A stretch of 32,399 bases of DNA from Pseudomonadota bacterium (GTDB taxonomy: Bacteria; Pseudomonadota; Gammaproteobacteria; Steroidobacterales; Steroidobacteraceae). Position numbers and translations under genes: made by a program. Below the pieces are notes generated by a model. That model did no database searches. It had not been told where the DNA came from and saw nothing but the letters and a program-made list of their open reading frames with translations. The stretch is taken from positions 1 to 32,399 of the forward strand of contig JAKBCR010000024.1 of assembly GCA_021807675.1 (NCBI GenBank). The letters are read 5' to 3'. This document shows positions 4,134-30,762 of the stretch, piece by piece (the stretch's first letter is position 1; the number at the start of each line of letters is the position of its first letter).

Positions 4134-5768
4134 TCATCGGGCAGCGGCCGAATCGGTGATGCGGCTCGATATCATGTTGGCCAGCTCCGAGAGCTTGACC
4201 TTTCCCGTTCCGGTTCGCGGCACGTCCTCGGCCGCGATGAAGACGATCTGCCGCGGAACCTTGTAGCTCGAGAGCACCTTGCGCAGCGCCGCCTTGAGCG
4301 ACTCCTCGCTCGGCCGGGCGTCCTTCGCCGCAACGACGGCGGCCACGACGCGCTGGCCGAGCTCAGGGTCCGGCAGCCCCACGACGAGGGGCAGCTCCAC
4401 CCCGGGGAGGGCGCGCATGGCGGCCTCGACCTCGAGCCGAGAGACGTTCGCGGCCTTCGTCTTGATCATATCCCCCCGGCGCGCGAGGAAGTAGAGATAG
4501 CCGTCCGCATCCACCCGCACGAGGTCACCTGTCGGATAATAACCATCCGCAGTGAATACCTCGCGCCGCTCGACCTTGTAGAAGCCCGAGAGCAACGCGC
4601 CACCCCGAAGCTGCAGCTCACCGCTCTCACCTGGCGGGACCGGGATGCCGGTCTCGGGGTCGACGACCCGCCGCTCATAGCCGTTGACGGTCCGTCCGGA
4701 GGAGCCCGCCTTGTCATCGGGCAGGCGGCAATCGAGCCGCTCGGCGCTGTGCGCCGCGAAGGTCTCGCTCATTCCGAGCATATTGACCTGCAGATGCGGC
4801 GGAATGAGCTCGCCACCGCCGTCGCGGAACGGCCCCAGACCGACGATACTGTCCACGTCGATGCCGCGAGCGATCGCCGCATCGCGCAGCTTCGCCAGCA
4901 TGTCGCCCCAGCTGTTCACTCGGTTGACCCGGAATCGTTGGATGGTATCGAGGACGACGTCCGTTTCCGGCGAGGCGGGATACACGAGCGTAGCCCCGAC
5001 ACTCAACACCTCCATCGCCATGGCGAGGCCGCCGAGCCAGAACGCCGGCAGGAGCGGCATCATGCGATCGCTCCTCTTCAGCAGGAAGTACTTCGCAAGC
5101 TCGGGGGGATGACGGGTGATGTTCCATTGGGTGTGCACGACGGCCTTCGGGGCCGAGGTACTTCCGGAGGTGTAAACGACGACGGCATCATCACCCGGCG
5201 CCACCTCGCGCTCGACGGCCGCGAGCAGCGCCGCATCCGGCGCCCCCGGCGCGTCCGCCCGCTCGATCAGATCCTCTATCGGCCGCGCCCAGGGCAGATC
5301 AGCCGCCTCATCCAGCCAGATCGAGCGTAGATAGGGGGCCACGGCCAGCCGTAATGCCTCCGCCTTCCCCTGTGCGAGCTGCGGCAGGGCGGCGCTCAGA
5401 GTCGCCGCGTAATCATGGCGCAGGAAGCGGCGCGCCCCGAGGAAGATCTGCGTGTCGCTGTTGCGCAGGATGTGAGCCAACTCCGGAGGCGTCGCGAGCG
5501 TACTGACCAGCGTCACCAGCGCTCCAATGCGCAAGGCCGCCAGATACGCCGTCAGCCAAAGAACCCCATCCGGCGCCTGCAAGGCGATCCGCGCTCCCTT
5601 GCCGACTCCGATCGCGAGCAGCGCGCGTGCCATCCGCGCGGTGCGCCGCTCGAGCTCCTCGTAGCTCAGGGTCTCCCGGGCCGTCGCGATGGCTTCATGC
5701 CTGCCTCGCTGCGCCACCACTCCGGCGAGCAGGGCCGGCAGCGTCGAGGCGAGCTCCCCCTCGCCCAT
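4134..5768 (-). CDS. AMP-dependent acyl-CoA synthetase/ligase
   Basis: ANL-superfamily enzyme of 544 aa that activates a carboxylic acid with ATP and transfers it to CoA. It has the P-loop-like TSGSTSAPK (about residues 200-208), GMSET (about 332-336), the YPTGDLVRVDADGYLYFLAR hinge region (about 410-429) with the catalytic Asp of TGD, and the C-terminal catalytic Lys in GTGKVKL (about 523). The start overlaps the upstream P450 stop in a TGATG junction, showing translational coupling. A TTG one codon earlier is less likely. It lies between a P450 and an amidohydrolase in one operon, suggesting that a P450-derived acid is activated here. It resembles cyclic or aromatic acid ligases, but the acid is not identifiable. 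Confidence 0.92.
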   Translation of the reverse strand: MGEGELASTLPALLAGVVAQRGRHEAIATARETLSYEELERRTARMARALLAIGVGKGARIALQAPDGVLWLTAYLAALRIGALVTLVSTLATPPELAHILRNSDTQIFLGARRFLRHDYAATLSAALPQLAQGKAEALRLAVAPYLRSIWLDEAADLPWARPIEDLIERADAPGAPDAALLAAVEREVAPGDDAVVVYTSGSTSAPKAVVHTQWNITRHPPELAKYFLLKRSDRMMPLLPAFWLGGLAMAMEVLSVGATLVYPASPETDVVLDTIQRFRVNRVNSWGDMLAKLRDAAIARGIDVDSIVGLGPFRDGGGELIPPHLQVNMLGMSETFAAHSAERLDCRLPDDKAGSSGRTVNGYERRVVDPETGIPVPPGESGELQLRGGALLSGFYKVERREVFTADGYYPTGDLVRVDADGYLYFLARRGDMIKTKAANVSRLEVEAAMRALPGVELPLVVGLPDPELGQRVVAAVVAAKDARPSEESLKAALRKVLSSYKVPRQIVFIAAEDVPRTGTGKVKLSELANMISSRITDSAAAR

Positions 5769-7099
5769 CAAGCACGCCTCGAGAACGTGAGCGGCAGCCG
5801 CATCACGGTCTGCGTGGCGACCGTAGGCAGGTAAGCGATCTCCTCGAGCGGTATCGCCAGCCTGATGTCATCGAGCCGCTTGATGATCTCCTGTGCGGCG
5901 ACCTTGATCTCCATCTTGGCCAGGGCCGCGCCGATGCAGCGGTGGATGCCGGCGCCGAAGGTGAGATGCTTGCCGACGTTGCCGCGGGTCACGTCGAACT
6001 GCCTCGAGCACGGAAACTGGGACTCGTCGTCGTTGGCCGATGCGAAGAGAATGCAGACCTGCGCGAAGGCCGGAAGCCGGGTGCCGCCGAGCTGCACCTC
6101 GCGGGTCGTCGTGCGAAAAAGTCCATGCGAGGGCGGCTCGAGGCGAAGCAGCTCCTCGACGAAGCGGGTGAGGAACCGGTCATCGTCGGCGGACTCGTGC
6201 AGCCGGCGCGCGAGATCGGGCTGGGTCGCAAGCACGAGCAGGAGGTTTGCGATGGCGGCGGCGGTCGTATCATTGCCCGCGATCAGCATGGCACGCACGC
6301 AGGAGACCTTCTCGGCGAAGGACAGAGTCGGATTCTGCTCGTCATCGAGCCGGGCATGCACCAGATCCGAGATCATGTCCTCCCGCGGCTCGCTCTCGCG
6401 CGCCCGTATGATCGGGATGATGTAGTTCTGCAGCTCGCACATCTCGCGCGCGTTCGCCAGCATCTCATCGTGCGTCTGCATCCTGCCGATCTGCGCGAGG
6501 AGCGCGGTCGTCCAACGGGCGATCCGCTCCGTGCCGACCTCGTCGAAATCGAATCCGAGTTGCTCGCAGATGACGCGCGCCGTGAGCGGCGCGCCGATGT
6601 CCTTCATGCCATCGGCATGACCCCGTCCGGCGATCGGCTCGATGAGATCGACCACGATCTGGCGGATTCTCGGCTCGAGGGTCTTGACCCGGTGCGCGGT
6701 AAACGCCTTGTCGAGGAGCTTGCGCAGGCGCGTATGCGCCGGAGGATCACAGGCGATGATGTCCCGGACGAAGCCACCGCCCTCGCGATTCATGATGTCC
6801 GCGAGCTCATCGACGAAACCGTTCGCGTAGCGATCCTGGTAGCCGTGCTCGAGGGAGAACGTGACCGGATCCCGCAGCACGGTCTCGACGTCCTCGTAAC
6901 GGCTCACGAGATAGACATCGAGCTTCGGATCGTAATAGACCGGCTGCTGCTCGCGCAGCGCCCGGTAGAACGGGAAGGGATTCTTGCGAATCAGAGGATC
7001 GACACGCGACTCGTCGCCGCGCAGCCTCATCGCACCGCCCGCATGCGGGCAGCCCCCCTGAACTTTTGAGCCCGATGAGCCCGATTCGATTCCGTCCAC
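5768..7099 (-). CDS. Cytochrome P450 number 1
   Basis: Soluble bacterial class I P450 monooxygenase of 443 aa. Visible elements are the I-helix oxygen-activation motif AGNDTT (274-279), the K-helix ExxR in EELLR (Glu316/Arg319) and the heme loop FGAGIHRCIG with the axial Cys388. There is no membrane anchor. The start is the GTG at 7099, supported by GGAGAG seven bases upstream; an in-frame ATG at 7030 would shorten the N-terminus by 23 residues and remove CPHAGG. It is first in an operon with an acyl-CoA synthetase and an amidohydrolase, and diverges from the AraC-ferredoxin genes. The ferredoxin at 8401 is the obvious electron donor. It is not closely similar to the other two P450s here. Confidence 0.95.
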   Translation of the reverse strand: MDGIESGSSGSKVQGGCPHAGGAMRLRGDESRVDPLIRKNPFPFYRALREQQPVYYDPKLDVYLVSRYEDVETVLRDPVTFSLEHGYQDRYANGFVDELADIMNREGGGFVRDIIACDPPAHTRLRKLLDKAFTAHRVKTLEPRIRQIVVDLIEPIAGRGHADGMKDIGAPLTARVICEQLGFDFDEVGTERIARWTTALLAQIGRMQTHDEMLANAREMCELQNYIIPIIRARESEPREDMISDLVHARLDDEQNPTLSFAEKVSCVRAMLIAGNDTTAAAIANLLLVLATQPDLARRLHESADDDRFLTRFVEELLRLEPPSHGLFRTTTREVQLGGTRLPAFAQVCILFASANDDESQFPCSRQFDVTRGNVGKHLTFGAGIHRCIGAALAKMEIKVAAQEIIKRLDDIRLAIPLEEIAYLPTVATQTVMRLPLTFSRRA

Positions 7100-8389: not shown

Positions 8390-8400
8390 GGCCACCGGCG

Positions 8401-15190: not shown

Positions 15191-15976
15191 TCAGTCCGGA
15201 CGGAAGCGCGGGAGCGCGATCAGGTGCTGCAGCGCCTGCGGGACGGTTGCACCGCGAATGGCCGGAGTATGCGCGCCCACGATCACCCCGATGTCGAGGC
15301 TCGCGAGCCGATCGACCTCGGCCTTGAACAGCGTCTGATCCACCAGGGCTATCCAGGGACAGAGCGCGATGTGCTGGAATCTCGCCATGCCCTGCGCCCA
15401 GAGAAGCGGCGGGATCTCATCGACCCAGTCGACAGGACTCTGCGGCATCGGGGCGCAAAACGCATCGGCTGAATAATAGACACGCGTGGAAGGGTCGAAG
15501 AGGCCGCGAGTATACGGGCTGTCGTAGACCGGGGGACGAACCGCGCGAAGCGCCCGATCGCCGACGTGGAACGTCTCTCCGTCCTCGATCATCCGCATGC
15601 GCTCGAGCGGGATGCCCAGGCATGCCGAAGTCCGATACGATTCGGCCCGGCTGGTCACGACCGTGGCATTCGCACATCGACCGAGCGCCTCGACGAGATT
15701 GCCGGCGTGATCGCCGTCGATGTGCGTGATGAAGATCCATCGCACCTCATGAGGGGGCACGAGCGAGAACACGTCCTCGAACCAGGCCGTGCGGTGGGTA
15801 ACCATTCCGGTATCGACGATGACGGGCTCCGCGGCGCGGATGATCATCGAGTTCAGGTTCGTCCACGTCCCGCCCGTGGAGGCAGTGATCGCCCGAATCA
15901 CGAACGTGTCGGGAGCCACCTCGAGGGGAGCCTGCCGTGGACCCGAGGTGGTCATGTTGATCTCAAAGCCGCTCAT
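15191..15976 (-). CDS. Metallo-beta-lactamase-fold hydrolase (FprA/ODP-like)
   Basis: A 261-aa MBL-fold protein. The metal motif is His85-x-Asp87-x-Asp89-His90 (THIDGDHAGN) in place of the canonical HxHxDH. This acidic substitution resembles the di-iron flavodiiron/ODP group (HxExDH). Other family segments are VIVDTGM (52-58), YYSADAF with a metal Asp, and VGAHTP near the C-terminus with the last metal His. No flavodoxin domain is fused. The ATG at 15976 has GAAGG five bases upstream. It is third in a minus-strand operon after the ferredoxin and SnoaL-like genes, 25 bp from the latter. It may be an oxygen-binding di-iron protein or a hydrolase with altered metal preference. Confidence 0.84.
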   Translation of the reverse strand: MSGFEINMTTSGPRQAPLEVAPDTFVIRAITASTGGTWTNLNSMIIRAAEPVIVDTGMVTHRTAWFEDVFSLVPPHEVRWIFITHIDGDHAGNLVEALGRCANATVVTSRAESYRTSACLGIPLERMRMIEDGETFHVGDRALRAVRPPVYDSPYTRGLFDPSTRVYYSADAFCAPMPQSPVDWVDEIPPLLWAQGMARFQHIALCPWIALVDQTLFKAEVDRLASLDIGVIVGAHTPAIRGATVPQALQHLIALPRFRPD

Positions 15977-16001
15977 GAAGCCTTCGCGCCCGCTCAGGGA
16001 G

Positions 16002-16403
16002 TCAACTCGCCCTCTGGAAGACTTCGATCACCGGCAGGGGATTGAAGTACTCCACATGCTCGGCGACTCTGCCGTTGCGGACGCGCGTCAAAATCACATA
16101 AGCGTTCGCGTAGCGCTGGCCGGACAACAGCACCACCTCGGACCGGGCCGTGGTCACGAAAAGCTCCGGATCCTCCGTTCCCCTGATGACCACGTCGTGC
16201 CAGGCGAACCGCTCGGTGGTCCGCCACATCGCGCCGAGCGCTTCGGTGGCTCGAGAGGCTCCGCGAAGCTCGGCGGGGACCCCTGGGGGCGCGAATGGCA
16301 GGCGGATCACGACATCGTCCGCCGCCTTGGCAGGCCACCGCTCGGCCGGTCCGGTCGCGACCAGGTCGAGCCACTCTCTGATCAGCACCTTCGCGTCCGT
16401 CAC
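16002..16403 (-). CDS. SnoaL-like / NTF2-fold protein
   Basis: A small 133-aa alpha+beta cone protein of the SnoaL/ketosteroid-isomerase-like group. It begins with the typical helix (VLIREWLDLVATG), continues with WHDVVIRG and ends with strands YANAYVILTRVRNGRVAEHVEYFNP. Members act as isomerases, cyclases or small hydrolases. The start is a GTG at 16403 preceded by GAGG. It lies between a ferredoxin and an MBL-fold gene in one operon that diverges from P450 number 2, so it may process the P450 product. No catalytic residues can be confirmed without a structural alignment. Confidence 0.8.
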   Translation of the reverse strand: MTDAKVLIREWLDLVATGPAERWPAKAADDVVIRLPFAPPGVPAELRGASRATEALGAMWRTTERFAWHDVVIRGTEDPELFVTTARSEVVLLSGQRYANAYVILTRVRNGRVAEHVEYFNPLPVIEVFQRAS

Positions 16404-16453
16404 GTTGCCTCAGCCTCCAGAGCCCGATTCTCGATCGCTGGGTGCCTCAATCG

Positions 16454-16774
16454 TCAACCCTGTCTCTCCGGCAAGTGGACCACCATCCCGTCGAGATCAT
16501 CGGTCACCCGGACCTGACACGAGAGCCGGCTCCTCGAGTCGACATCATTGACGCCATCGAGCATGGACGACTCCATCTCGTCACGCTCACGCAGCTTGGC
16601 CGCCCAGGCCTCGTCGACATACACATGGCATGTCGCACAGGCACAGTTTCCGCCGCACTGAGCCTCTATGCCGGGAACGCTGTTCCTCACGGCCCCCTCC
16701 ATTAGCGTCAGTCCCGCCTCGACATCCACCACGTGCTCGGTGCCGTTGAATTCGATGTACGTAATCTTGGCCAT
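16454..16774 (-). CDS. Adrenodoxin-type [2Fe-2S] ferredoxin number 2
   Basis: A 106-aa ferredoxin paralogous to the one at 8401. Ligands are Cys40-x5-Cys46-x2-Cys49 in CGGNCACATC and Cys86 in SRLSCQ, with an extra Cys44 inside the loop. HVYVDEAW and the acidic interaction helix ([12 protein letters not shown]) are typical of P450 electron donors. I chose the ATG at 16774, giving the usual MAKITYI start; the frame runs eight codons further upstream. It diverges from P450 number 2 and heads the ferredoxin, SnoaL-like, MBL-fold operon, so it is likely the redox partner of that P450. Confidence 0.94.
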
Positions 16775-17052
16775 ATCTTCCGATTCCAGACGCCTCACCC
16801 CGAAAAGTTGCCGAGCTCTCCGCTCGTGCTAGACTGAGCCATCCTGCCACACCCGTATCCAGACCGCCATGACGACGGCTTCATCGGCGGCCGTTTTGGG
16901 GCAGCCCCAGGCGCCGGGTGTAGAAGACGGACGTGAAGTGTTGAGCGAGCGCCCCCCCTCGCTGGTAGGCTGAAACTCAGCGCCGCTTCAATGCCGAGCC
17001 GCTCGTGCGCCCTCGGGTCGGTCATGGCTCGAGCCCACCCTGGAGATCGACC
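16775..17052. promoter_or_regulatory. Divergent promoter region of ferredoxin 2 and P450 2
   Basis: This 278-bp gap contains no gene. The 10-mer CCGCTCGTGC occurs at 16820-16829 and at 16999-17008, each preceded closely by GCCGAG, one copy near each gene start. They could be regulator sites, but short GC-rich repeats are weak evidence. No clear -10/-35 pair is visible. Confidence 0.3.
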
Positions 17053-18303
17053 GTGCCTCTGATAACAGAACTCACCCTGCCCGAGCTCGCAATCGAGGAC
17101 CCGACCTTCGGCGAGGATCCCTTTTCCAAGTTCAGCGCCGCCCGCACGCAACACCCCTGGCTCGCCAGGTGCGCATACGGCTACGTGGTCACGGCCTACG
17201 CCGCCATCCGAGACCTCCTGTTGATGGACGACAAGATGCGCGGTCCCTACGACAAGGTCTTCGACCTGATGAATGCGCGCGGCTCGCGCTGGGCTCGCTT
17301 CCAGGAGGAGTCGTTGCTTGCGATCTGGGGCGAGCCGCACAAGCGGATTCGCGACGTGCTGGCGCCCATGTTCACGCCGCGCGCGGCCAACCTGCGCCGG
17401 GGACTGATGCGCGAGGTGATCACGGGCCTGCTCGATGAATGGGTGCCCAAGGGAGCATTCGATTTCGAGGAGTTCGCTTCCTATTTTCCGATCAACGTGA
17501 TGTGCAGGATGATCGGCGCCTCGCCCGATGTCATTCCCGGGATGCGCTCCTCCCTCGAGACGCTCGGCCTCAGCCTGAATCTGATTCCAAACTTCCTGCC
17601 GAAGCTGGAGCAGGCGATGCAGTTCATGGAGACCTACCTCGAGCGGCTGGTCTGCGATCGGCGCGCGGGCGAGCGCCCCGGAGCCGAGCCCGATCTCCTG
17701 GACGCGCTGATCCAGGCGAGAGACTCCGGCGGCCTCGGCGCGCAGCAGATGACGAGCTTCCTGATCTTTCTCTTCGTCGCAGGCTACGACACCTCGAAGA
17801 ACGTATTGACCATGATCATGGACCAGCTCATCGGGCGCCCCGACCTGTACGAGCGCTGCGCGGCGGACAAGCAATACTGCCAGAAAGTGGTCGAGGAGAG
17901 CCTGCGCTACCGCAATCCCGGCACCAGCTCCCGACTGGTCAACGAGCAGTTCGTGTACCGTGATGTCGTCTTTCCGAAGGATACGATGCTGTTCCTGCCC
18001 AACAGCGTATCCGGGCGGGATCCGCAGGCCGTCGACGACCCTGACACATTCGATCCGGATCGTCCGCAGCAAAACCGGCACCTGGCCTTCGGCCGCGGAA
18101 TGCACATGTGTCTCGGCCAGTACATCGCCCGCGCGCAGATCGAGGAGGGCTTCCATCTGATTGCGCAGCGCATGAGGAATCCCCGCCGGGCCGGCAAGAG
18201 CGGGGTGCGCCCGTTTCCAGGCGTGTGGGGGCTCAAAGGCCTGCCGATCGAGTTCACCCCCGCGCCCGGAAAGCTTGCGGCGTCGTACCCATCGATCGCT
18301 TGA
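17053..18303 (+). CDS. Cytochrome P450 number 2
   Basis: Soluble class I P450 of 416 aa. It has the I-helix motif AGYDTS, ExxR in EESLR, and the heme loop FGRGMHMCLG with Cys353. The start is the GTG at 17053 with GGAG seven bases upstream; this puts the heme Cys at position 353, exactly as in its paralog at 29478-30716, which supports both starts. The two share blocks such as FDFEEFASYFPI and LPIEFTPAP. The oxygen-activation segment reads Asp-Thr-Ser rather than the commoner Asp/Glu-Thr-Thr. It diverges from ferredoxin 2, and its last 50 bases overlap the end of the AraC gene on the other strand. Confidence 0.95.
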   Translation: MPLITELTLPELAIEDPTFGEDPFSKFSAARTQHPWLARCAYGYVVTAYAAIRDLLLMDDKMRGPYDKVFDLMNARGSRWARFQEESLLAIWGEPHKRIRDVLAPMFTPRAANLRRGLMREVITGLLDEWVPKGAFDFEEFASYFPINVMCRMIGASPDVIPGMRSSLETLGLSLNLIPNFLPKLEQAMQFMETYLERLVCDRRAGERPGAEPDLLDALIQARDSGGLGAQQMTSFLIFLFVAGYDTSKNVLTMIMDQLIGRPDLYERCAADKQYCQKVVEESLRYRNPGTSSRLVNEQFVYRDVVFPKDTMLFLPNSVSGRDPQAVDDPDTFDPDRPQQNRHLAFGRGMHMCLGQYIARAQIEEGFHLIAQRMRNPRRAGKSGVRPFPGVWGLKGLPIEFTPAPGKLAASYPSIA

Positions 18304-19309
18304 AGGCGCGCCCGAAACTCGTCTGCTCGGCGTATCCCAGCTGAAAGGCGATCTCATCGAGCGTGCTCTCGCTCCAGAGCAGCGCGTGCTTCGCCAGCCG
18401 GATCCGCTCCCGCTGGGTGATATCCGAGAATTTCACGCCAGCGCGCATCAGGCGCTTCTGCAGCGTGCGAACGGCGGTCCCGATCTGCTCGGCGCAATCC
18501 TTGACCGAGCAGCGGCGTGCGGGCAGGGCGCGGCGGACATATCCCTGGACCTGCTCGACCACGCCCCCAGCCGATGCGGCGGTGAGCTGCGCGAGGCAGC
18601 TTTTCAACACGTTGAACACGAGCCCGTTGGCGGTCGGCACCGGACAATCGAGGAAGTGAGTCGGAAAGGCGACCGCATTCGCCTCGGCTCTGGTGTTGAC
18701 CTTGCATCCCAGGCGGTCCTGGAGAAATTGCACCGCCGGCCGTCCGATATCGAACGTGAGACTGGCGTAACACGGGCGGAACCGCTGTCGTCCGAGCATC
18801 TGCAGCGTCTTCATGGTGAGCAGCAGACCTTGGTAATACACCTGCTCACTGCCATCGATTCCGACCGTGGTCGAAAATCTCAGCTCCGTGACGTCGCGGA
18901 TCGTCACCGTCTCCATCTCGGCTTCCGGCGAGGCGGACACGGACACGTAGTCGACGAGGCACGCGAGGGCCTCGCGCACGGTGGGCGCCGCCCGCGCCAG
19001 GGTGATCATGCAGCCATACGCATCAGGGTCCTGCCTTTCCGCGAGCCGCAGCCCGAACAGAGGCTCACGCAGGTGCCTGCTCGAGTATTCGAGCAGGCTC
19101 GCCGCGGCGGTGCACGCGATGTCCTCCTCGGGATCCTCGAAGGTCGAGGGATCGATTTCATGATGCTCGAGGAGAGCCGACGGGTCGCCCCCTAAGCTGC
19201 GCACGAGGTCGTCGTACCCTTTGAGATAACCTGCCCGCAGCCTCCCGCGCGCCGGAACCGCCCGGGACGGAAAATCATCCCCACAAATATACGGACTCTC
19301 GATGCGCAC
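18254..19309 (-). CDS. AraC-family transcriptional regulator number 2
   Basis: A 351-aa AraC regulator with an N-terminal Arabinose_bd/OruR-like ligand domain (YDDLVRSLGGDPSALLEHHE and following) and a C-terminal helix-turn-helix pair ending in LDEIAFQLGYAEQTSFGRAF and TTPQAFRA. The start is assigned to the GTG at 19309 because GAGGGGGA lies just upstream; an ATG at 19354 is possible. Its 3-prime end overlaps the P450 gene tail to tail. It diverges from PQQ dehydrogenase 1 and is a natural candidate to control that gene and, through the shared promoter block, iorAB. Confidence 0.9.
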   Translation of the reverse strand: MRIESPYICGDDFPSRAVPARGRLRAGYLKGYDDLVRSLGGDPSALLEHHEIDPSTFEDPEEDIACTAAASLLEYSSRHLREPLFGLRLAERQDPDAYGCMITLARAAPTVREALACLVDYVSVSASPEAEMETVTIRDVTELRFSTTVGIDGSEQVYYQGLLLTMKTLQMLGRQRFRPCYASLTFDIGRPAVQFLQDRLGCKVNTRAEANAVAFPTHFLDCPVPTANGLVFNVLKSCLAQLTAASAGGVVEQVQGYVRRALPARRCSVKDCAEQIGTAVRTLQKRLMRAGVKFSDITQRERIRLAKHALLWSESTLDEIAFQLGYAEQTSFGRAFKRSMGTTPQAFRARG

Positions 19310-19579
19310 AGATCCCCCTCGAATGTCGCCGTGGCTTGCGGACGACATAGGCATCGCCGCCGTGCCGCCGGATAGCGGGCCCTGGCGCCTCCTTGTGCAC
19401 GCTAGCAGCCCAATCCGCAGACCGCTCTGCACGCTGCGCCCACTCATCTGCAGGGCGCGCCTCGTTTCGGCTCTCGGCCGGCCGCACCACCCGCCTCTTC
19501 GATTCGGACGCGAACTGTCGGGACGAGCCCCCGCGACTGTGCTTCACTGGCGATCGAGTTGGTAGAGCTCGGGGGTGGC
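19310..19579. promoter_or_regulatory. Divergent promoter region of AraC 2 and PQQ dehydrogenase 1
   Basis: This 270-bp gap holds a 31-bp block at 19518-19548, TCGGGAC-N13-TGTGCTTCACT, which recurs at 24001-24031 upstream of the iorA-like gene with identical internal spacing (23 of 31 bases the same). It ends 31 bp before the PQQ dehydrogenase ATG, a suitable place for a promoter or activator site. No other gene is seen here. Confidence 0.55.
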
Positions 19580-21637
19580 ATGAAAGACCGGATCTCGCAC
19601 ACGCTTTTGGCGCCAATCGCGGCGGCCGCGATCATGGCGGCTGCGGCTCTCTCGCCTGCGCTCGCCAGGCAACAGACCCCGCCTGGCGCGGGCGCAGACT
19701 GGGTGACGGTGGGCGGCGCCTCGAGCGGCAGCGGCTACAGCCGGCTGCACCAGATCAACACCTCCAACGTGGGCAGGCTGGGACTCGCATGGTTTCTCGA
19801 CCTGCCGGGCGAGACCACGCTGGAGGCGACGCCGCTCGCGATCAACGGTGTGCTCTACTTCACCGGCAGCTACGCCAGCGTCTACGCGGTCGACGCCGCG
19901 AGCGGCAAGCGGCTGTGGAAATTTGATCCGCAGACCTGGAAATACGATCCGGCGAAGATGCGCGATGTATTTCCCGTGAACCGGGGAGTCGCCTACGCCG
20001 ATGGCCGTATCTTCTCGGGGGCAGTGGACGGCAGGCTCTTCGCCCTGGATGCGAATACGGGAAAGCTGCTCTGGAGCGCGCAGACGGTCGGTCGGCGCTC
20101 CGTGCAGACCGTCACAGGCGCTCCGTGCGTTTTCGATGGCAAAGTGCTCATCGGCAGCGGTGGTGGAGACCAAGGCGCGCGCGGTTACGTGACCGCGTAT
20201 GACGCGGCCACCGGCCGAGAGCTCTGGCGCTTCTACACGGTGCCCGGAACACCGGCGCAGAATCGGGGTGATCCGGCTCTCGAGCGCGCGGCTCGGACGT
20301 GGACGGGACCGGCCCCGAACGGCCGCAGGGGCGGAGCCGTGTGGGACAGCATCGTCTTCGATCGCAAGCTCGATCAGGTCTATCTCGGCGTGGGTAATCC
20401 CAACCCCATGGACCCCGCCATACGCAGCCCCGATGGCGGCGATAATCTCTATACCGACTCCATCGTCGCACTCGATGCCGCGACGGGCAGACTCCTGTGG
20501 GCGTACCAGGTCAATCCTCGCGATGAGTGGGACTACGATGCGACCGAGCCGATGGTCCTCGCGGAGCTCACCATCGATGGCAAGCGCCGTCCCGTGCTGA
20601 TGCAGGCACCGAAAAACGGCTTCTTCTACGTGCTCGATCGGCGCACCGGGAAGCTCCTCACCGCCGGCAAGATCGGCAAGGTGACCTGGGCCACCCGGAT
20701 CGACCTGGCCACCGGGCGGCCCGTGCAAGTGCAGAGCGCTCGCTACGACAAGAGCGGCTCCGCCGTGGTCTGGCCGAGCGCGGTCGGAGCGCACAGCTGG
20801 CAGACCATGTCATTCAGCCCGCAGACAGGCCTCGTCTACATTCCCTACATGCAGCTCGCCACGCGCTTCAGTACGCTCAAGGCCGCCTCGGGCGCGCTCA
20901 CCTTTGGCGGCGTCTCGGACGAGCTGATCGCGCCAGGCCCTGGCGACGGGAAGGGCGCCTTGATCGCGTGGGACCCGGTGCGTCAGCGGGCAGTCTGGCG
21001 GATACCGCGCTCGACGCTCTGGAACGGCGGCACCCTCGCCACGGCCGGCGACCTCGTCTTTCAAGGCACCGCCGGGGGGTACCTGTCGGCCTACGATGCC
21101 GCGAGCGGCAAGCGCCTTTGGCGATTCAATGCGGGGCTCGGCATCATCGCCGCGCCTGACAGCTATAGCGTCGGCGGCAAGCAATACATTTCGGTGCTGG
21201 TCGGCTACGGTGGCTCCGCGGCCATCGGCAGTCAGTTCATGAATGTCGGCTGGAAGTTCACCCAGCCGAGACGCCTGCTGACCTTCGCGCTAGGCGGCAC
21301 AGCGGCGCTGCCGCCGTCCCCTCCTCCCGATCCGACCGTCCATCCCGTGGACGTTCCCGGCCTGAAGCTCGACCCGGCCGCCGTGTCGGCAGGTCACGCG
21401 CTCTATCTCGCCTGCTCGATCTGTCACGGGAAGAATCTGGTCGCGGCCGGCGGGCCCGCGCCGGACCTGCGCGAGTCCCGCATCGCCATGAGCCCGGATG
21501 GCCTCTGGACCGTGCTGCACAAGGGTGCCCTCCTGTCGAAAGGCATGCCCCGATTCGGGCAGCTCACCCGCAAACAGGTGATGGACATCTATGAATACAT
21601 CAGAGCGGGAGCGCGCGCCGCGCTGGCGCATCATTAG
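19580..21637 (+). CDS. PQQ-dependent alcohol dehydrogenase with cytochrome c domain, number 1
   Basis: A 685-aa periplasmic quinohemoprotein: signal peptide (about residues 1-30, ending SPALARQ), eight-bladed PQQ propeller, then a cytochrome c domain with CSICH (612-616). Propeller W-motifs such as SVYAVDAASGKRLW repeat through the chain. The catalytic segment is DEWDYD with Asp318 and an extra Asp320; that second Asp is characteristic of lanthanide-dependent alcohol dehydrogenases. Asn273 (GVGN) is present, but the metal-binding Glu is replaced by Asp197 (GGGDQGARG), and the vicinal Cys-Cys pair before VNRGVAYADG is missing. The ATG at 19580 follows GGGGGT. It likely oxidises a primary alcohol and passes electrons to cytochrome c. 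It converges on its paralog with a 15-bp gap. Confidence 0.92.
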   Translation: MKDRISHTLLAPIAAAAIMAAAALSPALARQQTPPGAGADWVTVGGASSGSGYSRLHQINTSNVGRLGLAWFLDLPGETTLEATPLAINGVLYFTGSYASVYAVDAASGKRLWKFDPQTWKYDPAKMRDVFPVNRGVAYADGRIFSGAVDGRLFALDANTGKLLWSAQTVGRRSVQTVTGAPCVFDGKVLIGSGGGDQGARGYVTAYDAATGRELWRFYTVPGTPAQNRGDPALERAARTWTGPAPNGRRGGAVWDSIVFDRKLDQVYLGVGNPNPMDPAIRSPDGGDNLYTDSIVALDAATGRLLWAYQVNPRDEWDYDATEPMVLAELTIDGKRRPVLMQAPKNGFFYVLDRRTGKLLTAGKIGKVTWATRIDLATGRPVQVQSARYDKSGSAVVWPSAVGAHSWQTMSFSPQTGLVYIPYMQLATRFSTLKAASGALTFGGVSDELIAPGPGDGKGALIAWDPVRQRAVWRIPRSTLWNGGTLATAGDLVFQGTAGGYLSAYDAASGKRLWRFNAGLGIIAAPDSYSVGGKQYISVLVGYGGSAAIGSQFMNVGWKFTQPRRLLTFALGGTAALPPSPPPDPTVHPVDVPGLKLDPAAVSAGHALYLACSICHGKNLVAAGGPAPDLRESRIAMSPDGLWTVLHKGALLSKGMPRFGQLTRKQVMDIYEYIRAGARAALAHH

Positions 21638-21652
21638 CATGAGGCCCGGCAT

Positions 21653-23707
21653 TCAATTGTGGTGTTGCATGCTGAGCGCCTTGCGCGCCCCGGCGCGAAT
21701 GTAGTCGTAGATGTCCATGATCTGGGCGCGGCTGAGGTTGGCGAAGCGCGGCATTCCATGCTGGATCAGCGCCCCGTCGTGGACGACCGCGTAGAGACTC
21801 TGCGGGTCAAGAGCGATGGCCGAGGCCCGCAGATCGGGCGCCGGTCCGCCGTCGGATATGAGGTTCAGGCCGTGGCAGGCTGCGCAGGAACGATACAGAC
21901 TGTGACCCGCCGCGACGGCGCTCGCGTTGAGCTTCAATCCCGGATCATCGAGAGCGTGGACCGTTTCATCCGGCGGCGGTGACGGCGGCAACACGGCCTT
22001 GCCGCCGATGGCGAAGGTGAGGAGGCGCCGTGGGGCGCTGAACTTCCAACCCGCATCCATCACCGAGCCCCAGATGGCCGAGGAGCCGCCGTAACCCACC
22101 AGGATCGAGATGTACTGCTTGCCGCCGGCCATGTAGGTCATGGGTGCCGCAATCACACCCAGCCCTGCATTGAAAGCCCAGAGCTTCTTCCCGCTCCATG
22201 CGTCGTAGGCACGGATGTAGCCGTCGCCCGCGCCTTGGAATACCAGACCACCCGCCGTCGCCAATGTGCCGCCATTCCAGATGGTGTCATGCGGAACGCG
22301 CCACACCGGCTTCTGGCGCACCGGGTCCCACGCGAGCAGCGCGCCCTCGTCATCGCCCGGACCCTCATTGACGGCCTTGAGGCTCGCAAAGCCGATGTCG
22401 AATCCGCCGGGCTGCGACTTACCTGTCACCCAACGGACGCCCTCCTGCATGTAAGGCACGTACACGAGGCCGGTTTGCGGATCGAAGGACATCGTCTGCC
22501 AGCTATGCGCGCCCATGCTCCCCGGCCAAACGGTGCTCCCGGTCGTCCTGTAGTAGCGGGCGCCCGGGACCTCGACGGGACGGCCGGTCGTAAGATCGAT
22601 CCGCCTGGCCCAGGTCACCTTCCCGATTTTTTCCGCCGAGATGAGCTTTCCGGTGACGCGATCGATCACGTAGAAGAAGCCGTTCTTCGGTGCCTGCATG
22701 AGCACCCTGTGCCTTCTTCCATCGATCATGAGATCGGCCAGCACCATCTGCTGAGTGCTGTCATAGTCCCAGGCGTCTCTAGGGTTGACCTGATAGTCCC
22801 AAATGAACTTCCCCGTCTTGGCATCGAGAGCGACGATCGATGCCGTATACAGGTTATCGCCTCCCCCGGGACTGCGGATCCTCGGATCATAAGGGCCGGC
22901 ATTGCCCGTTCCGATGTAGATACGGCCCAACGCGCGGTCGAAGGTGATGCTGTCCCAGGGTCCGCCGCCAGTTCCGGTCTTCCAATACTCCCCGGACCAC
23001 GTCTTCGCGGCGCGCTCCATGGACGGATGGCCCTTGTTTTGCGCGGGCGAGCCGGGCACCGTGTAAAAGCGCCAGACCCGCTGTCCCGTCGCCTGCCGAT
23101 ACGCCGTGACATAGCCGCGCGCGCCGAAGTCGGCACCTCCGTTGCCGATGATCACCATCCCGTCGAATACCCGCGGCGCCCCGGTGACATAGTGCGCCGA
23201 GTTGCGGGAAACCGTATCCACGCTCCAGATGAGCCTGCCGGTCCTGGCATCGAACGCAAAGAGCCTCCCATCCAATGCGGCCGAGAACACCCGCCCGTGG
23301 GCGTAGGCCACTCCACGATTCGCGCCAAAGCTGTAATGCATCTTGGCGGGATCGAATTTCCAGGTCTTCGGATCGAACTTCCAGAGCAGCTTCCCGCTGA
23401 CCGCATTCACGGCATAGACCGTGGCATAGGTTCCCGTGAAATAGAGCACGCCATTCACCGCAAGAGGGGTCGCCTCCAGGGTCACCTGGCCTGGAAGATC
23501 GAGCGACCAGGCAAGTCCCAGGTTTCCGACGTTGGACCGGTTGATGCCGTCGAGCCGGCTGTATGCGGTCTCGTCGGTGTCGCCGTTGTGGCTCACCCAG
23601 TTGGCCGCCGCGGCATCCCTGTCAGTCACGGAAGCGGCGAAGGACGCCCTCCATCCACCCAGTGCGGCCATGTTGAGTACCAAGGCCCATACCAACGAGT
23701 TGCGCAT
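21653..23707 (-). CDS. PQQ-dependent alcohol dehydrogenase with cytochrome c domain, number 2
   Basis: Close paralog of the gene at 19580, in the opposite orientation. It has the same order of signal peptide (MRNSLVWALVLNMAALGG and on), PQQ propeller and C-terminal heme site CAACH. Catalytic segment: DAWDYDS, again Asp-x-Asp. Asn is present in GTGN; the metal Glu is again Asp (NGGADFGARG); the Cys-Cys pair is absent (SFGANRGVAYAHG). I chose the ATG at 23707 because it places a normal signal peptide at the N-terminus and gives 684 aa, matching the 685-aa paralog. In-frame ATGs at 23731 and 23821 exist; the latter has a better AAGGG site but would put an acidic 38-residue stretch before the signal. 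It diverges from iorAB. Confidence 0.9.
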   Translation of the reverse strand: MRNSLVWALVLNMAALGGWRASFAASVTDRDAAAANWVSHNGDTDETAYSRLDGINRSNVGNLGLAWSLDLPGQVTLEATPLAVNGVLYFTGTYATVYAVNAVSGKLLWKFDPKTWKFDPAKMHYSFGANRGVAYAHGRVFSAALDGRLFAFDARTGRLIWSVDTVSRNSAHYVTGAPRVFDGMVIIGNGGADFGARGYVTAYRQATGQRVWRFYTVPGSPAQNKGHPSMERAAKTWSGEYWKTGTGGGPWDSITFDRALGRIYIGTGNAGPYDPRIRSPGGGDNLYTASIVALDAKTGKFIWDYQVNPRDAWDYDSTQQMVLADLMIDGRRHRVLMQAPKNGFFYVIDRVTGKLISAEKIGKVTWARRIDLTTGRPVEVPGARYYRTTGSTVWPGSMGAHSWQTMSFDPQTGLVYVPYMQEGVRWVTGKSQPGGFDIGFASLKAVNEGPGDDEGALLAWDPVRQKPVWRVPHDTIWNGGTLATAGGLVFQGAGDGYIRAYDAWSGKKLWAFNAGLGVIAAPMTYMAGGKQYISILVGYGGSSAIWGSVMDAGWKFSAPRRLLTFAIGGKAVLPPSPPPDETVHALDDPGLKLNASAVAAGHSLYRSCAACHGLNLISDGGPAPDLRASAIALDPQSLYAVVHDGALIQHGMPRFANLSRAQIMDIYDYIRAGARKALSMQHHN

Positions 23708-24103: not shown

Positions 24104-24592
24104 ATGACCGCAGTCCGCTTGCGCGTCAACGGTGCGGAGCACGAAGTCGACGCGGACTCCTCGACCCCCCTGCTGTGGGTTCTCCGCGATCACCTCGGGC
24201 TCACCGGCACGAAGTACGGATGCGGTATCGGTGAGTGTGGCGCCTGCACGGTGCATCTCGATGGCACGCCGGTCCGATCCTGCATGTTGCGACTGGCCAC
24301 TCTGGCGGGTGCCGACGTCGTCACCATAGAAGGGTTGTCCGACAAGGGCGGTCACGTGCTGCAACGGCTCTGGGCCGAGATGAACGTGCCCCAGTGCGGA
24401 TATTGCCAGGCCGGCATGCTGATGGCGGCGGCTGGACTGCTGAAGCGAAACGCCCATCCCTCCGAGGACGACATCGACGCGGCGATCTCCAACATCTGCC
24501 GCTGCGGCACCTATCCGCGCATCCGTGCGGCCATCCTGCGCGCCGCGGACGCGGGCAGCGCACCGGAGGCCGGATCCCCGGAGAAGTCATGA
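24104..24592 (+). CDS. iorA: Molybdenum hydroxylase small subunit, [2Fe-2S] (IorA-like)
   Basis: A 162-aa iron-sulfur subunit of a xanthine-oxidase-family enzyme, carrying two [2Fe-2S] clusters. N-terminal plant-type cluster: Cys40, Cys45, Cys48, Cys60 ([10 protein letters not shown]). C-terminal cluster: Cys98, Cys101, Cys132, Cys134 (QCGYCQAG and ICRCGTY). It transfers electrons from the molybdenum subunit. The ATG at 24104 has GGAGG five bases upstream. It overlaps the next gene by four bases (ATGA), so both are translated together. The family includes isoquinoline 1-oxidoreductase and periplasmic aldehyde oxidases; the symbol marks family, not proven substrate. Confidence 0.93.
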
Positions 24593-26853
24593 CACAGCAG
24601 ACGGTGGATCGTCGCCAGTTCATCGTTTCCGTCGCGCTCGCCGCCGGCGGAATGGCTCTTGGCATCGTGCCCGCTGCGGCGCGCGAGCGGGCTGGCGCTC
24701 AGGGGCCCTGGGCAACGGACGACCCTGGAGCGACCGAGCTCTCGCCCTGGATCGAGATCGCCCGGGACAACACGGTGACCTTCCTCGTGCCGACGCCGGA
24801 AATCGGCAACGGGGCGATGACGCAGGCCGCCATGAACATCACCGAGGAGCTGGCCTGCGACTGGTCGAGAGTGAAGGTCGAATTCTGCTCGATCCGCCGC
24901 AACTACATGGAGCACGGCGTCTACGACTCGGGCTTCCTGCCTTTCTTCGGCGGCCATGGGACCGACAAGGTGCGGATGCACCATGAGCTGCAGCTCGGAG
25001 CGAGCGCCCGCGAGCGCTTGAGGACCGCGGCTGCGCAGCACTGGGGCGTTCCGCTCGCGACGATCGAGGCGAAGGATAGCCTGCTCACCCACACTCCGAC
25101 CGGAAGACGACTCACCTATGGCGAGGTGGCCACTGCCGCAGCCAAAGTGAGGCTCGCATCCGAGCCGAAGCTGAAATCGCCGGATCAGTGGACTTTCCTC
25201 GGCAAGGCGTCGCCGAGCAAGCTCAACATCCCGCAAATCGTCACCGGCAAGGCCGTCTACGGCATCGACGTGCAGGTCCCCGGGATGGTTTACGCCGCGC
25301 TCAAGCAATCCCCGGTCCAGGGAGGCAAGCTCAAGAGCCACAAGCCCGAGGCGGTGCTCGGCATGCCCGGCGTGCGCGCCGTCGTGGTGATCGATCGCGA
25401 GAAGACCCCGGGCACTCCCGTTCCGGGCAAGGCCACGTGGGGGTACTCCACCAATCAGCTGCAGAGCGGCGTCGCCGTCATCGCGGATCACTACTGGCAG
25501 GCGAAGACCGCGCTCGATGCCCTGCCCGTCGAGTGGGATGCGGGTCCGGGTGCGAAATGGGACACTGTCGAGCAGATATACGGGGCAGCGCGGGCCCTCC
25601 ATGACCGTCCGGGCGGCAAGGTTCTGCGCGAGTCGGGCAATGTTGATTCCGTCACGGACGGGCGGACGGTACAAGGAACGTATTCGACGCCGTACTGCGA
25701 GAATGCGGCTATGGAGCCGCTGAACGGCACCGCCGTCGTCACGAAGGATGGCGCCGAGATATGGTGCCCGACTCAGGACCTGCTGCAGGCCTACTGGGTC
25801 GCGATAGACGAAAGTGGCATGCGTCCTGAAAAGGTCAGATTGCATGAGTGCTACGTCGGGGGCGCCTACGGCAGAAGAACACAGGCCGACGACGTGCGTG
25901 TCGTCATCGCCATTGCCAGGGAATACCCCGGCGTTGCGGTGAAGACGATCTGGTCCCGCGAAGAATGCTTTCAGCAGGGTCGCTACCGCACCCCGATCAC
26001 GACGCAGTTCAAGGCGGTGCTCGATGAGCGAGGCTACCCGCGCGCGGTGACCGGCAAGGCCGTCTTCGTCGGGACTCATCCGCTCTTCCAGCTGCCGCTC
26101 GGATATTCCGACGTACCGTACTTCACGAGCGGCATCATCCCGAATGTCCGCCTTTCCGCGGCGAGCCTGCCTGTCAACATTCTCGACGGGGCCTTCCGCG
26201 GACCCTGTTACAACTCGCACGCGTTCCTGGTCGAGACCTTCATCGACGAATGCGCCGCGGCCGCCGGCATCGACCCGCTCGAGTACCGCCTCCATCTCGT
26301 CTCCCGATGGGACAAGTCGTGGGGCGACTGCCTGCGCGTGGCGGCCGAGAAGGCGGCCTGGGGCCGGCCCCTCCCCCCGGGAGAAGGAAGAGGAATCGCC
26401 ATCACGAGCTGGCCGAACGGCGCGATACACAATTTTGGAACGATCATCTGCGCCGTGGCGCACGTGAAGGTCACTCGCCGCGGGGAGCTCGAGGTCAAGC
26501 AACTCGACTACGCCTTCGATTGCGGCCGCGTCGCCAACCATGACGCCGTGCGTGCCCAAATCCAGGGTGGCGCGATCTTCGGCATGAACGTAGCCTTGAA
26601 CGAGCAGCTCACCGTCAAAGCCGGTGAGATCGTCGAGCGGAATTTCGACCACTATCCGATGCTGCGGCTCGGGGACAAGCTGCCGCAGGTCAACGTCCAC
26701 TTCGATGCGCTGTCCGGTTACAAGCGCTGGGACATCATCGGTGAGTCACCCGTCGGTCCCGTCGGGCCGGCAATCGGCAATGCGATTTTCCGCGCCACGG
26801 GCAAGCGACTGCGCACCACTCCGTTTCGCGATCACGACCTGAGCTGGACCTGA
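24589..26853 (+). CDS. iorB: Molybdenum hydroxylase large subunit (IorB-like), Tat-exported
   Basis: A 754-aa molybdopterin-binding subunit of the isoquinoline 1-oxidoreductase beta type, which binds molybdopterin cytosine dinucleotide in related enzymes. The N-terminus has a twin-arginine signal, [15 protein letters not shown], so the IorA-IorB complex is probably folded in the cytoplasm and exported together. Family segments include [13 protein letters not shown], the dioxo-molybdenum loop VGGAYGRR, and the C-terminal [17 protein letters not shown] carrying the candidate catalytic Glu. It lacks a cytochrome c domain, unlike some aldehyde dehydrogenase complexes; the heme domains of the neighbouring PQQ dehydrogenases or a separate cytochrome may take the electrons. 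It is likely an aldehyde oxidase or N-heterocycle hydroxylase. Confidence 0.93.
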
Positions 26854-26983: not shown

Positions 26984-27838
26984 TCAGGCGAGGCTCGGAA
27001 AGCGGTCCTCGGGAAGCGGCTCGTTGATCTTCATGCCGGTATGGTCGAACGCCTCGGCGGGCGCCCCGGTCCAACAGGCATCCACCGGCTGCACGAGCAT
27101 CAGATACGCCCACCGTGGCCGGTTCGTGACGTTTGAGCCGGCGCCGTGCACCGTCATGTGCGAATGCACCGTGACATCGCCAGCGGCATACACCATGGGC
27201 TCCGACACCCCCAACTCAGTGCGCAGGTTCGGATAGATATCCAACAGATCCTCGCCCTTCTGATAGGTCCGGTAATTGCCCAGCACACCGAGACGGTGGG
27301 AACCGCTCACGAAGGACATGGTTCCGAACTCCGGACCGTAGTCCTCCAGCGCGAGCCAGAAAGTCATCCCTCCCGAGCGATCCACCGAGAAATTGATGAA
27401 GTCCTGATGGAAGCTGGTCGGTCCGTTACCACCGTGCCTCGCGGCCTTCGAGGAGGGGAGCTTGGGAGCGTAGAAGTCGGAGAAATACCGGACTCCCACC
27501 GGCTTGGCGCGATTCATCAGCAACTTCGCGTTCCGGCCGACGTGATCGATCAGCGACCGGACCGGCGGATTCGCCAGGCCGCCACCATACTCCGCGTTGA
27601 AATAGGCGATCTTCTTCTCGACACCGGGAGCCAGCGTCTCGATGACGGCATTGCTGTCGGCATCCTCGCCCATCTGCTTGAGAGCGGTGTTGAGTATGAT
27701 CCGCACCATCTCCGGGCGCACGAAGCCTTTCAGCTTGACCCAACCGTGCTCCACGTAATGAGCGACCTCGCCAGGGGTAACGGGCCGGCAAGGTCCGGCA
27801 CCGATGTCGCCTGTTTCTTTCCGCACCGCGCTTTGCAT
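26984..27838 (-). CDS. Phytanoyl-CoA dioxygenase (PhyH) family protein
   Basis: A 284-aa Fe(II)/2-oxoglutarate-dependent oxygenase of the PhyH type. The iron-binding triad is visible as His144-x-Asp146 in FHQDFINF and His231 in MTVHGAGSN, with Arg242 (RPRWAY) a likely 2-oxoglutarate anchor. The domain fills the protein from GWVKLKGFV (about 32-40) to the C-terminus. GGGA lies seven bases before the ATG. It is expressed alone, converging on iorAB, with a long upstream region. It probably hydroxylates a substrate or CoA ester in the pathway. Confidence 0.9.
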   Translation of the reverse strand: MQSAVRKETGDIGAGPCRPVTPGEVAHYVEHGWVKLKGFVRPEMVRIILNTALKQMGEDADSNAVIETLAPGVEKKIAYFNAEYGGGLANPPVRSLIDHVGRNAKLLMNRAKPVGVRYFSDFYAPKLPSSKAARHGGNGPTSFHQDFINFSVDRSGGMTFWLALEDYGPEFGTMSFVSGSHRLGVLGNYRTYQKGEDLLDIYPNLRTELGVSEPMVYAAGDVTVHSHMTVHGAGSNVTNRPRWAYLMLVQPVDACWTGAPAEAFDHTGMKINEPLPEDRFPSLA

Positions 27839-28200
27839 AGGAAATCCCGTGAAGATGATCTACAGTTCGAAAAAGAAGCTCGAATAACGATACCACCGCT
27901 GCGAGCGGAACGGGGCCGAGACCCCGTGAAGTGTATTCCACCCTATCGACTCCCGGGTGCCCCCGGGGGAAGCGCGCATGGTCCACGGCGGCACTTTACC
28001 CAGGAGCGCTGGATCCGGGCAGATCGCCTGGAGCGATCCGCAACGTCAAGCGCCTCAACGCTTGACGGCCCCGAAGGGGCGAGGCCCAGGACGAGCCGAG
28101 TAACGCACCGCCTCGCGCTGCGGCGGCGGGGCACATCCTGTGTCTGGGGTAGCGCCCGCGCCGCTTCATGATTTCGGGGTCGACATCGGTCGCCGGGCAC
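27839..28200 (-). other. Leader and structured region upstream of the PhyH-like gene
   Basis: No gene is evident in these 362 bases. Near the gene lie an inverted repeat, ACGGGG-N6-CCCCGT (27910-27927), and TCGATAGG on the minus strand (27942-27949), the same octamer seen twice at 12054-12082. Further upstream is the repeat-plus-hairpin block at 28005-28080. This may be a promoter with a structured untranslated leader, or a repeat element inserted between the SMP-30-like and PhyH-like genes. Confidence 0.4.
28005..28080. repeat. Dispersed repeat copy 3 followed by three hairpins
   Basis: AGCGCTGGATCCGGGCA (28005-28021) is identical to 13034-13050. It is followed without pause by three perfect stem-loops: GATCGC-CTGGA-GCGATC (28022-28038), CGTCAAGCG-CCTCAA-CGCTTGACG (28044-28067, 9 bp) and GCCCC-GAA-GGGGC (28068-28080). 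This is compatible with a REP-like mobile repeat, a structured small RNA or a terminator array. Confidence 0.5.
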
Positions 28201-29091: not shown

Positions 29092-29092
29092 G

Positions 29093-29477: not shown

Positions 29478-30716
29478 TCAGCCCGGGCATTCGCCCGCCA
29501 ACGGGGCGGGAGTGAACTCGATGGGCAGACCGCGAATGCCCCAGACGCCCGGGAAGGGTCGCCAGCCGAGCGGCCCCGGCGATCGGGGGTTGGTGATCCT
29601 TCGCGCAATCAGGTGCAGGCCCTCCTCGAGCTGCGCTCGAGCGATGAACTGGCCGAGACACATGTGAGCCCCCAGGGCGAACCCGAGATGCGGATTCTTG
29701 CGGACCCGGTCGGGCTGAAAATCGTCCGCGTCGTCGGCCGCGAGCGGATCGCGCCCGATGATGCTCCACGGAAACCAGAGATTGGTGCCGGCGGGCATGA
29801 GCACGCCGCGGTAAGCGATATCCTCGGTCAGCAGCCGGTTGGTGGTGGTCGTGCTGTGAAAGCGCATCGTCTCGTCGACCACTTTGCGGCAGAAGGACAG
29901 ATCCTGTGCGCAGCGCGCATAGATCTGAGGCCTGCCCACGATCTCATACATGATGAGGGTAAGCACGTTCTTGGATGTGTCGAATCCCGCGACGAAGAGG
30001 AAGATCAGCAAATCGGCCAGCTCGCGCTGGCTCAAGCCCCCGTCCGCCTTTGCCTGCAGCAAGACATCGAGCAGGTCTTCGGCTTCCCGCAGCCGCTTCC
30101 CCCGAGCTCGCTCCTCGATGAGCCGATGGACGAACTCATCGAGGACCTGCGTCGCCCGCTCGAGAGCCCCGAGGATTTGCGGATCCATGCTGACGCTCAA
30201 TCCCAGAGCCTCGAGCGAGGACTTGAGACTCGGGATTGCTTCCGGCGGCGCGCCGATCAGATTGCACATCACCGTGATGGGAAAGAAGGAGGCGAATTCC
30301 TCGAAGTCGAATGCCCCCCTCGGCGCCCACTCATCCAACAGTCTCGCGATGACCTCGCGCATGAGCGGGCGATGCTCGCTCGCCCGCCTGGGGCTGAATG
30401 CCGGAGCCAGTATCTCGCGCAGCCGGGCGTGCGCCGGCCCCGACTGGCTGAGGATGTGACGCTCCTGAAACCGCCCCCAGGGAGTGCCCTGAGCCCCCAT
30501 GACCTCCACGAGCTTGTCGTAGGGCGTGCGCATCTTGTGCTCCATGCGAAAGAGATCGCGCACCGCCTCGTAGAGGGTTACGATCGGCCCGAACTTCCAC
30601 CTCGCAAGCCAGGAATGCCGCCGGCGGGCCGCCGCGAAATGCGCCGCGGGATCCTTCGCGAAGGAGGCTTCCTCCATGGGAAGATACGGAAGGTCGAGCT
30701 CAGCGAGGGGTGTCAT
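29478..30716 (-). CDS. Cytochrome P450 number 3
   Basis: Soluble class I P450 of 412 aa, paralogous to the gene at 17053-18303 along its length. I-helix motif AGFDTS, ExxR in DETMR, heme loop FALGAHMCLG with Cys353. The heme loop has Leu in place of the usual Gly/Arg two residues after Phe, a tolerated change. The start is the ATG at 30716; an upstream TTG at 30752 is less likely. It is first of an operon with CMD-like and SMP-30-like genes and diverges from a TetR gene. A TTGAAA box with possible -10 elements 15-17 bp away is visible upstream on this strand. Confidence 0.95.
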   Translation of the reverse strand: MTPLAELDLPYLPMEEASFAKDPAAHFAAARRRHSWLARWKFGPIVTLYEAVRDLFRMEHKMRTPYDKLVEVMGAQGTPWGRFQERHILSQSGPAHARLREILAPAFSPRRASEHRPLMREVIARLLDEWAPRGAFDFEEFASFFPITVMCNLIGAPPEAIPSLKSSLEALGLSVSMDPQILGALERATQVLDEFVHRLIEERARGKRLREAEDLLDVLLQAKADGGLSQRELADLLIFLFVAGFDTSKNVLTLIMYEIVGRPQIYARCAQDLSFCRKVVDETMRFHSTTTTNRLLTEDIAYRGVLMPAGTNLWFPWSIIGRDPLAADDADDFQPDRVRKNPHLGFALGAHMCLGQFIARAQLEEGLHLIARRITNPRSPGPLGWRPFPGVWGIRGLPIEFTPAPLAGECPG

Positions 30717-30762
30717 TCTTGGCGCACCGCGTGACTGCCGAAGGTTTCCCAACCATGCCTCC

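Follow-up and report, generated by a model that had tools for sequence, protein, structure and literature searches.

The question raised by this locus is which metal is held by the two pyrroloquinoline quinone (PQQ) dehydrogenases that it encodes, P0001 and P0002, whose Asp-x-Asp (D-x-D) motif recalls lanthanide enzymes. The window, that is, the whole stretch analysed, comprises 32,399 nucleotides of contig JAKBCR010000024.1 from a Steroidobacteraceae genome, and carries the two genes in convergent (tail to tail) orientation with 15 bp between them; the proteins share 66% identity across 651 aligned columns. The explanation that we favour, with a probability of about 0.5, is that they are type II enzymes without the usual Cys pair, in which residues 320 and 345 (P0001 numbering) would form a charge switch that places a lanthanide in the Asp320/Lys345 form and a divalent ion in Lys320/Thr345 relatives, with a hydrophobic compound as substrate. 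The genes and the residues concerned are:

19580..21637, + strand: P0001, PQQ/heme c alcohol dehydrogenase 1 of 685 aa, with a propeller, a cytochrome c at the C-terminus and what looks by eye like a signal at the N-terminus
20168..20170, + strand: P0001 Asp197 at the metal-ligand Glu position (alignment to PDB chains, DNA check)
20396..20398, + strand: P0001 Asn273, conserved metal ligand (column comparison, DNA check)
20531..20539, + strand: P0001 Asp318 (catalytic)-Tyr319-Asp320 (lanthanide-type Asp) (alignment, DNA check)
20612..20614, + strand: P0001 Lys345, which pairs with position 320; replaced by Thr, Ile or Val where 320 is Lys (14 rows) (column comparison, DNA check)
21413..21427, + strand: P0001 heme c motif CSICH (CxxCH at residues 612-616)
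21653..23707, - strand: PQQ/heme c alcohol dehydrogenase 2 (P0002), 684 aa; paralogue of P0001
23129..23131, - strand: P0002 Asp193 at the metal-ligand Glu position (alignment, DNA check)
22760..22768, - strand: P0002 Asp314 (catalytic)-Tyr315-Asp316 (alignment, DNA check)
22685..22687, - strand: P0002 Lys341, equivalent of P0001 Lys345 (alignment, DNA check)

Both proteins exceeded the cut-off of profile TIGR03075 (540.8 bits for P0001 and 538.0 bits for P0002; cut-off 480.05) and that of the C-terminal cytochrome c family PF13442, and the heme columns of P0001 are filled by C612, C615, H616 and M656. The closest PDB sequence match of P0001 is 1kv9 (E 9e-187), and its structure model (predicted local distance difference test, pLDDT, 88.7) matched the folds of 1kv9, 1yiq, 1kb0 and 8gy2 best, followed by PedH and XoxF/methanol dehydrogenase chains. 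The profile scores, the cytochrome c domain and the sequence and fold matches to 1kv9 identify P0001 and P0002 as intact type II quinohemoprotein alcohol dehydrogenases, each fused to a heme c domain, the other checked PQQ and heme columns being kept. With the type II enzymes ADH-IIB (1kv9), ADH-IIG (1yiq) and qhEDH (1kb0) they share the propeller and fused heme c, the PQQ columns, the Asn and the catalytic Asp; they differ from them by Asp for the metal Glu, by the missing Cys pair and by Asp instead of Thr two positions after the catalytic Asp (+2). XoxF (6oc5, 6dam) resembles them in the Asp-x-Asp and, in 6oc5, in a basic residue in the 345 column, but has no heme domain, falls into a separate tree group and, in 6oc5, retains the Cys pair and the Glu. 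The first-pass annotation had taken XoxF, ExaF and PedH as the comparison group, which was the wrong one. A grouping with XoxF was rejected on the heme domain and on the tree, where the 106 heme-bearing rows form a separate group with a Shimodaira-Hasegawa-like approximate likelihood ratio test (SH-aLRT) value of 100; the trees contained no PedH, ExaF, PedE or ExaA row. The match of the P0001 model to the PedH/ExaF-type lanthanide ethanol dehydrogenase 6zcw is limited to the propeller (37-573).

The residues themselves were read correctly in that annotation. WDYD lies at the catalytic Asp in both proteins when they are aligned on that column with 1kv9 and other PDB chains, and this check, which could have overturned the claim, left it standing. 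The Asn of GxGN (N273 in P0001, N269 in P0002) and the Asp in place of the metal Glu (D197, D193) were confirmed on the DNA, as was the CxxCH of P0002 at residues 608-612. The vicinal Cys pair typical near PQQ is absent from both, its columns being occupied by D129-V130 in P0001 and Y125-S126 in P0002. At the +2 position the four type II PDB chains carry Thr, XoxF 6oc5 carries Asp and MxaF 1g72 carries Ala. The metal triad is thus Asp-Asn-Asp, not Glu-Asn-Asp. Asp197, Asn273 and Asp318 are kept in 18/18 clade members examined, which is more than chance.

Because the Cys pair is missing from both, we refer to a Cys-less variant lineage, which branches inside the heme-bearing enzymes and does not consist of typical type II members. 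In a careful tree of 65 rows, from which the trait columns were excluded, the Cys-less clade comprises 23 rows with support 100/99 (one of them, L031, is a fragment without the Cys region), and an inner clade of 14 rows with support 100/100 has Asp at 197 in 14/14. The divergent clade with an altered metal site that had been proposed from the two proteins is borne out by these groups; its features do not form one package, as set out below. The fused heme c domain, Lys345 and six further family members of the genome, of which five are full length and one is a fragment, had gone unmentioned.

The +2 residue did not vary alone. A WDYK motif first appeared in three clade loci, and of the 18 clade members, 12 combine Asp at position 320 with Lys at 345, and the other six combine Lys at 320 with Thr at 345. 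The remaining checked columns were kept, except the Cys columns and W407 (Phe in 2); the heme region is missing in two of the 18 rows, L021 (contig end) and L163 (frame ends at a stop). All loci were then pooled; a row was counted if it was distinct over 230-419 and had 80 or more of the 102 positions of columns 250-351 filled, PDB references and Escherichia coli Gcd included where they passed. Among the 184 distinct rows, 345 is without Lys or Arg in 14/14 rows with Lys320 (Thr 11, Ile 2, Val 1), and is Lys or Arg in 170/170 rows without Lys320. Sampling was steered by two search models and score thresholds, and in some searches no more than the 2 to 4 top candidates of each genome were scored; the frequencies are therefore not those of nature. 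The new element is that, as judged from these alignments, the Asp-x-Asp state moves together with a second residue at 345.

According to PMC8028316, the first shell of XoxF consists of Glu197, Asn285, Asp327, Asp329 and PQQ, and both Asp327 and Asp329 are hydrogen-bonded to Arg354. Arg354 follows them by 27 and 25 residues, the same distances as from D318 and D320 to K345. For the number of carboxylates, the same paper gives m+1 as a cited limit and finds four in XoxF (PMC8028316). Four carboxylates were counted in the Asp/Lys form (Asp197, Asp318, Asp320 and PQQ) and three in the Lys/Thr form, so that under this limit a trivalent lanthanide (Ln3+) would be expected in the former and a divalent ion in the latter.

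In the mechanism that we propose, the alcohol would be bound over PQQ, with Asp318 as the base and hydride transfer to PQQ. Electrons would then reach the fused heme c from PQQ although the usual disulfide is missing, a ring that has been tied to electron transfer in ExaA (PMC12997753). Residues 320 and 345 would act as a two-residue charge switch: Asp320/Lys345 enzymes, with four carboxylates at the metal, would most likely hold a lanthanide, and Lys320/Thr345 relatives, with three, most likely Ca2+ or another divalent ion. To judge from neighbouring genes only, the substrate is probably a hydrophobic compound, for example a hydroxylated one resembling a terpenoid or steroid, and the product may be handed to the neighbouring molybdenum dehydrogenase. 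The coupled 320/345 switch argues better for lanthanide dependence than the motif alone, and lanthanide use by P0001 and P0002 is plausible. Among the open-licence papers listed, most of them seen as listing entries only, none was seen to describe a lanthanide-dependent heme-fused type II enzyme or the Lys/Thr switch.

Several observations weigh against this charge-switch explanation, and they are given here with the alternatives to which they lend support. The best surviving alternative, a real possibility although we rate it below even odds, is that these are ordinary Ca2+ (or Mg2+) type II quinohemoproteins in which a salt bridge with Lys345 neutralises Asp320 and no trivalent ion is selected; it is at odds with the four carboxylates around the metal, which are XoxF-like. 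E. coli Gcd, a Mg/Ca enzyme, reads WDMD, that is, D-x-D as well; it also has no Cys pair at the aligned columns, and differs from P0001 and P0002 in its far branch in the tree and in that no heme domain was found. Among heme-bearing rows +2 varies between Thr, Asp, Lys, Asn and Ser, and even L030 and L032, which are close sisters, are unlike there, with Asp in the former and Thr in the latter. The m-GDH that has been studied carries the motif, though m-GDH is predicted to be metal-promiscuous (PMC11996626), and a Ca-type enzyme without the Asp is reported to retain 60-80% of its activity in 10 mM lanthanides (PMC10409515), so that the Asp is not the whole story. In computations described in PMC8028316, the MxaF and XoxF sites can each bind both ion kinds, lanthanides better.

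Carriage of XoxF, scored where L071 was matched at about 480 bits or above, bears on the same alternative. Across 73 genomes (G041 left out) XoxF was found in 10/18 with a type II D-x-D enzyme and in 12/55 without (p 0.016). Outside the window's genus it was found in 1/7 type II D-x-D genomes and 10/53 others (Fisher p 1.0); a general link between the two was rejected, the signal being gone there. Within the clade, XoxF occurs in three of six Asp/Lys genomes (G000, G005 and G804, two of them of one genus) and was not found in G806, G810 and G1098; it was found in 0/10 Lys320 genomes, of which at least two carry a PedH/ExaF-like WDFD enzyme (8 loci looked at). In the source genome, the neighbours of XoxF (L001) are a c-type cytochrome frame and a protein of the MoxJ type, and pqqE, the one pqq gene sought, is above the cut-off. 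Seven of its family members are full length, and one more is a 299-residue piece cut by a contig end; Asp197, Asn273, Asp318, Asp320 and Lys345 are common to all seven, and the Cys pair is absent from all. Asp320 in 7/7 full-length copies of a genome with a XoxF system speaks against a plain Ca2+ or Mg2+ enzyme. Altogether, the genome-level evidence for lanthanide use is weak. The MoxJ-type periplasmic binding protein at L070:4884-6674, which adjoins XoxF and a c-type cytochrome frame, has ankyrin-like matches in its C-terminal part.

Taken by itself, Asp-x-Asp is a labile marker in heme-bearing PQQ enzymes, gained and lost often. Among 134 distinct heme-bearing rows the +2 residue is Thr in 68, Asp in 38, Lys in 13, Asn in 10, a gap in 3 and Ser in 2. 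On a quick tree of 117 rows (29/114 inner branches below 80% support), the D-x-D state changed at least 14 times, Glu/Asp197 seven times (116 rows) and the Cys pair twice (three rows set aside). Rows with fewer than 330 filled columns or without Asp/Glu at 318 had been excluded already from the tree that sets the heme-bearing group apart; for the counting of changes, L073, L009, L026, the truncated L028 and E. coli Gcd were removed too. Cys loss, Asp197 and D-x-D as one package were rejected on these differing counts and on seven rows that combine the Cys pair with Asp197 and D-x-D. A second heme-bearing group (L047, L049, L062, L064, L065, L067 and L068), from genomes of the window's genus, has D-x-D and Asp at the Glu site with the Cys pair retained.

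The 320/345 coupling might also be mere linkage, the two sites lying 25 residues apart and changing through joint recombination tracts or a few inherited events, with no functional charge switch. This we consider unlikely. No Lys/Lys or Asp/Thr intermediate was found in the 184 distinct rows, and when columns 40-675 were scanned, solely 320 and 345 were fixed for differing residues between 11 Lys/Thr and 12 Asp/Lys rows, although column 406 also separates the types (Asn in 11 versus Ser in 10, Val in 1 and Asp in 1). The equivalent residues are hydrogen-bonded in XoxF (PMC8028316). In a 57-row tree the Lys/Thr lineages split off successively (support of the forks 99/95, 100/94, 97/71 and 97/86) below the 12 Asp/Lys rows that make up the window's subclade, L217 lies inside the Lys/Thr group, yet is Asp/Lys again, and the three Lys/Ile/Val rows are placed elsewhere with weak support (86/28). 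This tree requires at least four changes at each of 320 and 345, and with only about four per site linkage gains some ground. There are just three independent 320/345 pairs, all in the same direction, and n=3 cannot reach 0.05. Over 320-359, L217 is nearer to Asp-type rows (mean 0.73) than to its own sisters (0.54), so that recombination may have carried both sites.

The nesting supports Lys/Thr as the earlier state, with one fork weak; forcing the Lys/Thr rows and L217 together was rejected by an approximately unbiased (AU) test (p 0.0195), which was post hoc. A bolder version of the charge-switch explanation, which we advance tentatively and with some doubt, is that 320/345 would be a reversible charge relay by which the Cys-less lineage changes from a trivalent lanthanide to a divalent metal, or to none, and back, and that the window's lanthanide site would have been rebuilt from a lysine ancestor.

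That the ammonium of Lys320 replaces the metal altogether, the clade toggling between metal-assisted and metal-free PQQ chemistry, is very improbable: Lys does occupy the place of a XoxF metal ligand, and 345 no longer offers it a basic partner, but Asn273 and two carboxylates are kept in 18/18 examined members, which suggests that a metal is still bound.

The inner clade is rare: in two scans, of 369 and 398 genomes, nothing but G000 gave a match that reached 900 bits; another scan placed it in 7 named genomes, one of them apparently G005 of the window's genus. One of the Lys/Thr enzymes is that of Novosphingobium chloroacetimidivorans (L019). In the family of the Novosphingobium genome, 10/298 genomes exceeded the search threshold, among them G903 (L224) with a sister-lineage protein only, and G880, G898 and G962 with the Lys/Ile or Lys/Val form. 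Further scans gave 1/11, 3/256 and 1/260 genomes, centre genomes counted, and a scan of viral contigs found no relative. A Cys-pair-less PQQ-alcohol-dehydrogenase-like lineage (L022:3880-6054, L022:916-2376 and L061:3915-6284) has Cys, Ser or Gly in the metal Asn column, and in L061 Glu in the catalytic Asp column; its metal site has perhaps been lost. Three PQQ-alcohol-dehydrogenase-like proteins (L074, L075 and L051) have the CxxCH motif and a gap in the catalytic Asp region.

The neighbouring genes that bear on the likely role are:

18254..19447, - strand: AraC-type regulator, transcribed away from gene 1 and, by its position only, a candidate for the control of that gene
24104..24592, + strand: [2Fe-2S] subunit of a molybdenum hydroxylase
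24589..26853, + strand: molybdopterin subunit, xanthine-oxidase-family dehydrogenase with an RRxF leader
5768..7099, - strand: P450 or P450-like gene
17005..18303, + strand: P450 or P450-like gene
29478..30752, - strand: P450 or P450-like gene

The dehydrogenase at 24589..26853 is a possible next step, from aldehyde to acid. Molybdenum hydroxylase genes lie by clade members in 3/13 distinct loci compared (window, L018/L080 and L079), P450-like genes near those of the window, L016, L018 and L079, and SMP-30 genes at the window, L020 and L069; the L021 member has a TonB receptor upstream, and a piece homologous to this receptor lies next to L017. Several contigs in this comparison were short. 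These neighbours fit the oxidation of bulky hydrophobic alcohols. The window further contains, at 94-18303 and 26984-30752, a catabolic gene set with a CoA ligase, an enoyl-CoA hydratase, PhyH, SMP-30 and a 3-ketosteroid-dehydrogenase-like flavoprotein (below cut-off). A minus-strand open reading frame at 16795-18357 (520 aa), for which Pfam gave no match, shares part of its span with a P450-like frame.

The natural Asp/Lys and Lys/Thr relatives offer a clean comparison by which metal choice in this family becomes testable. If the reversible relay is true, lanthanide dependence of a heme-fused PQQ dehydrogenase would have arisen by reversal. If the window's enzymes take lanthanides, rare-earth biochemistry would extend to heme-fused dehydrogenases and perhaps to the catabolism of larger molecules.

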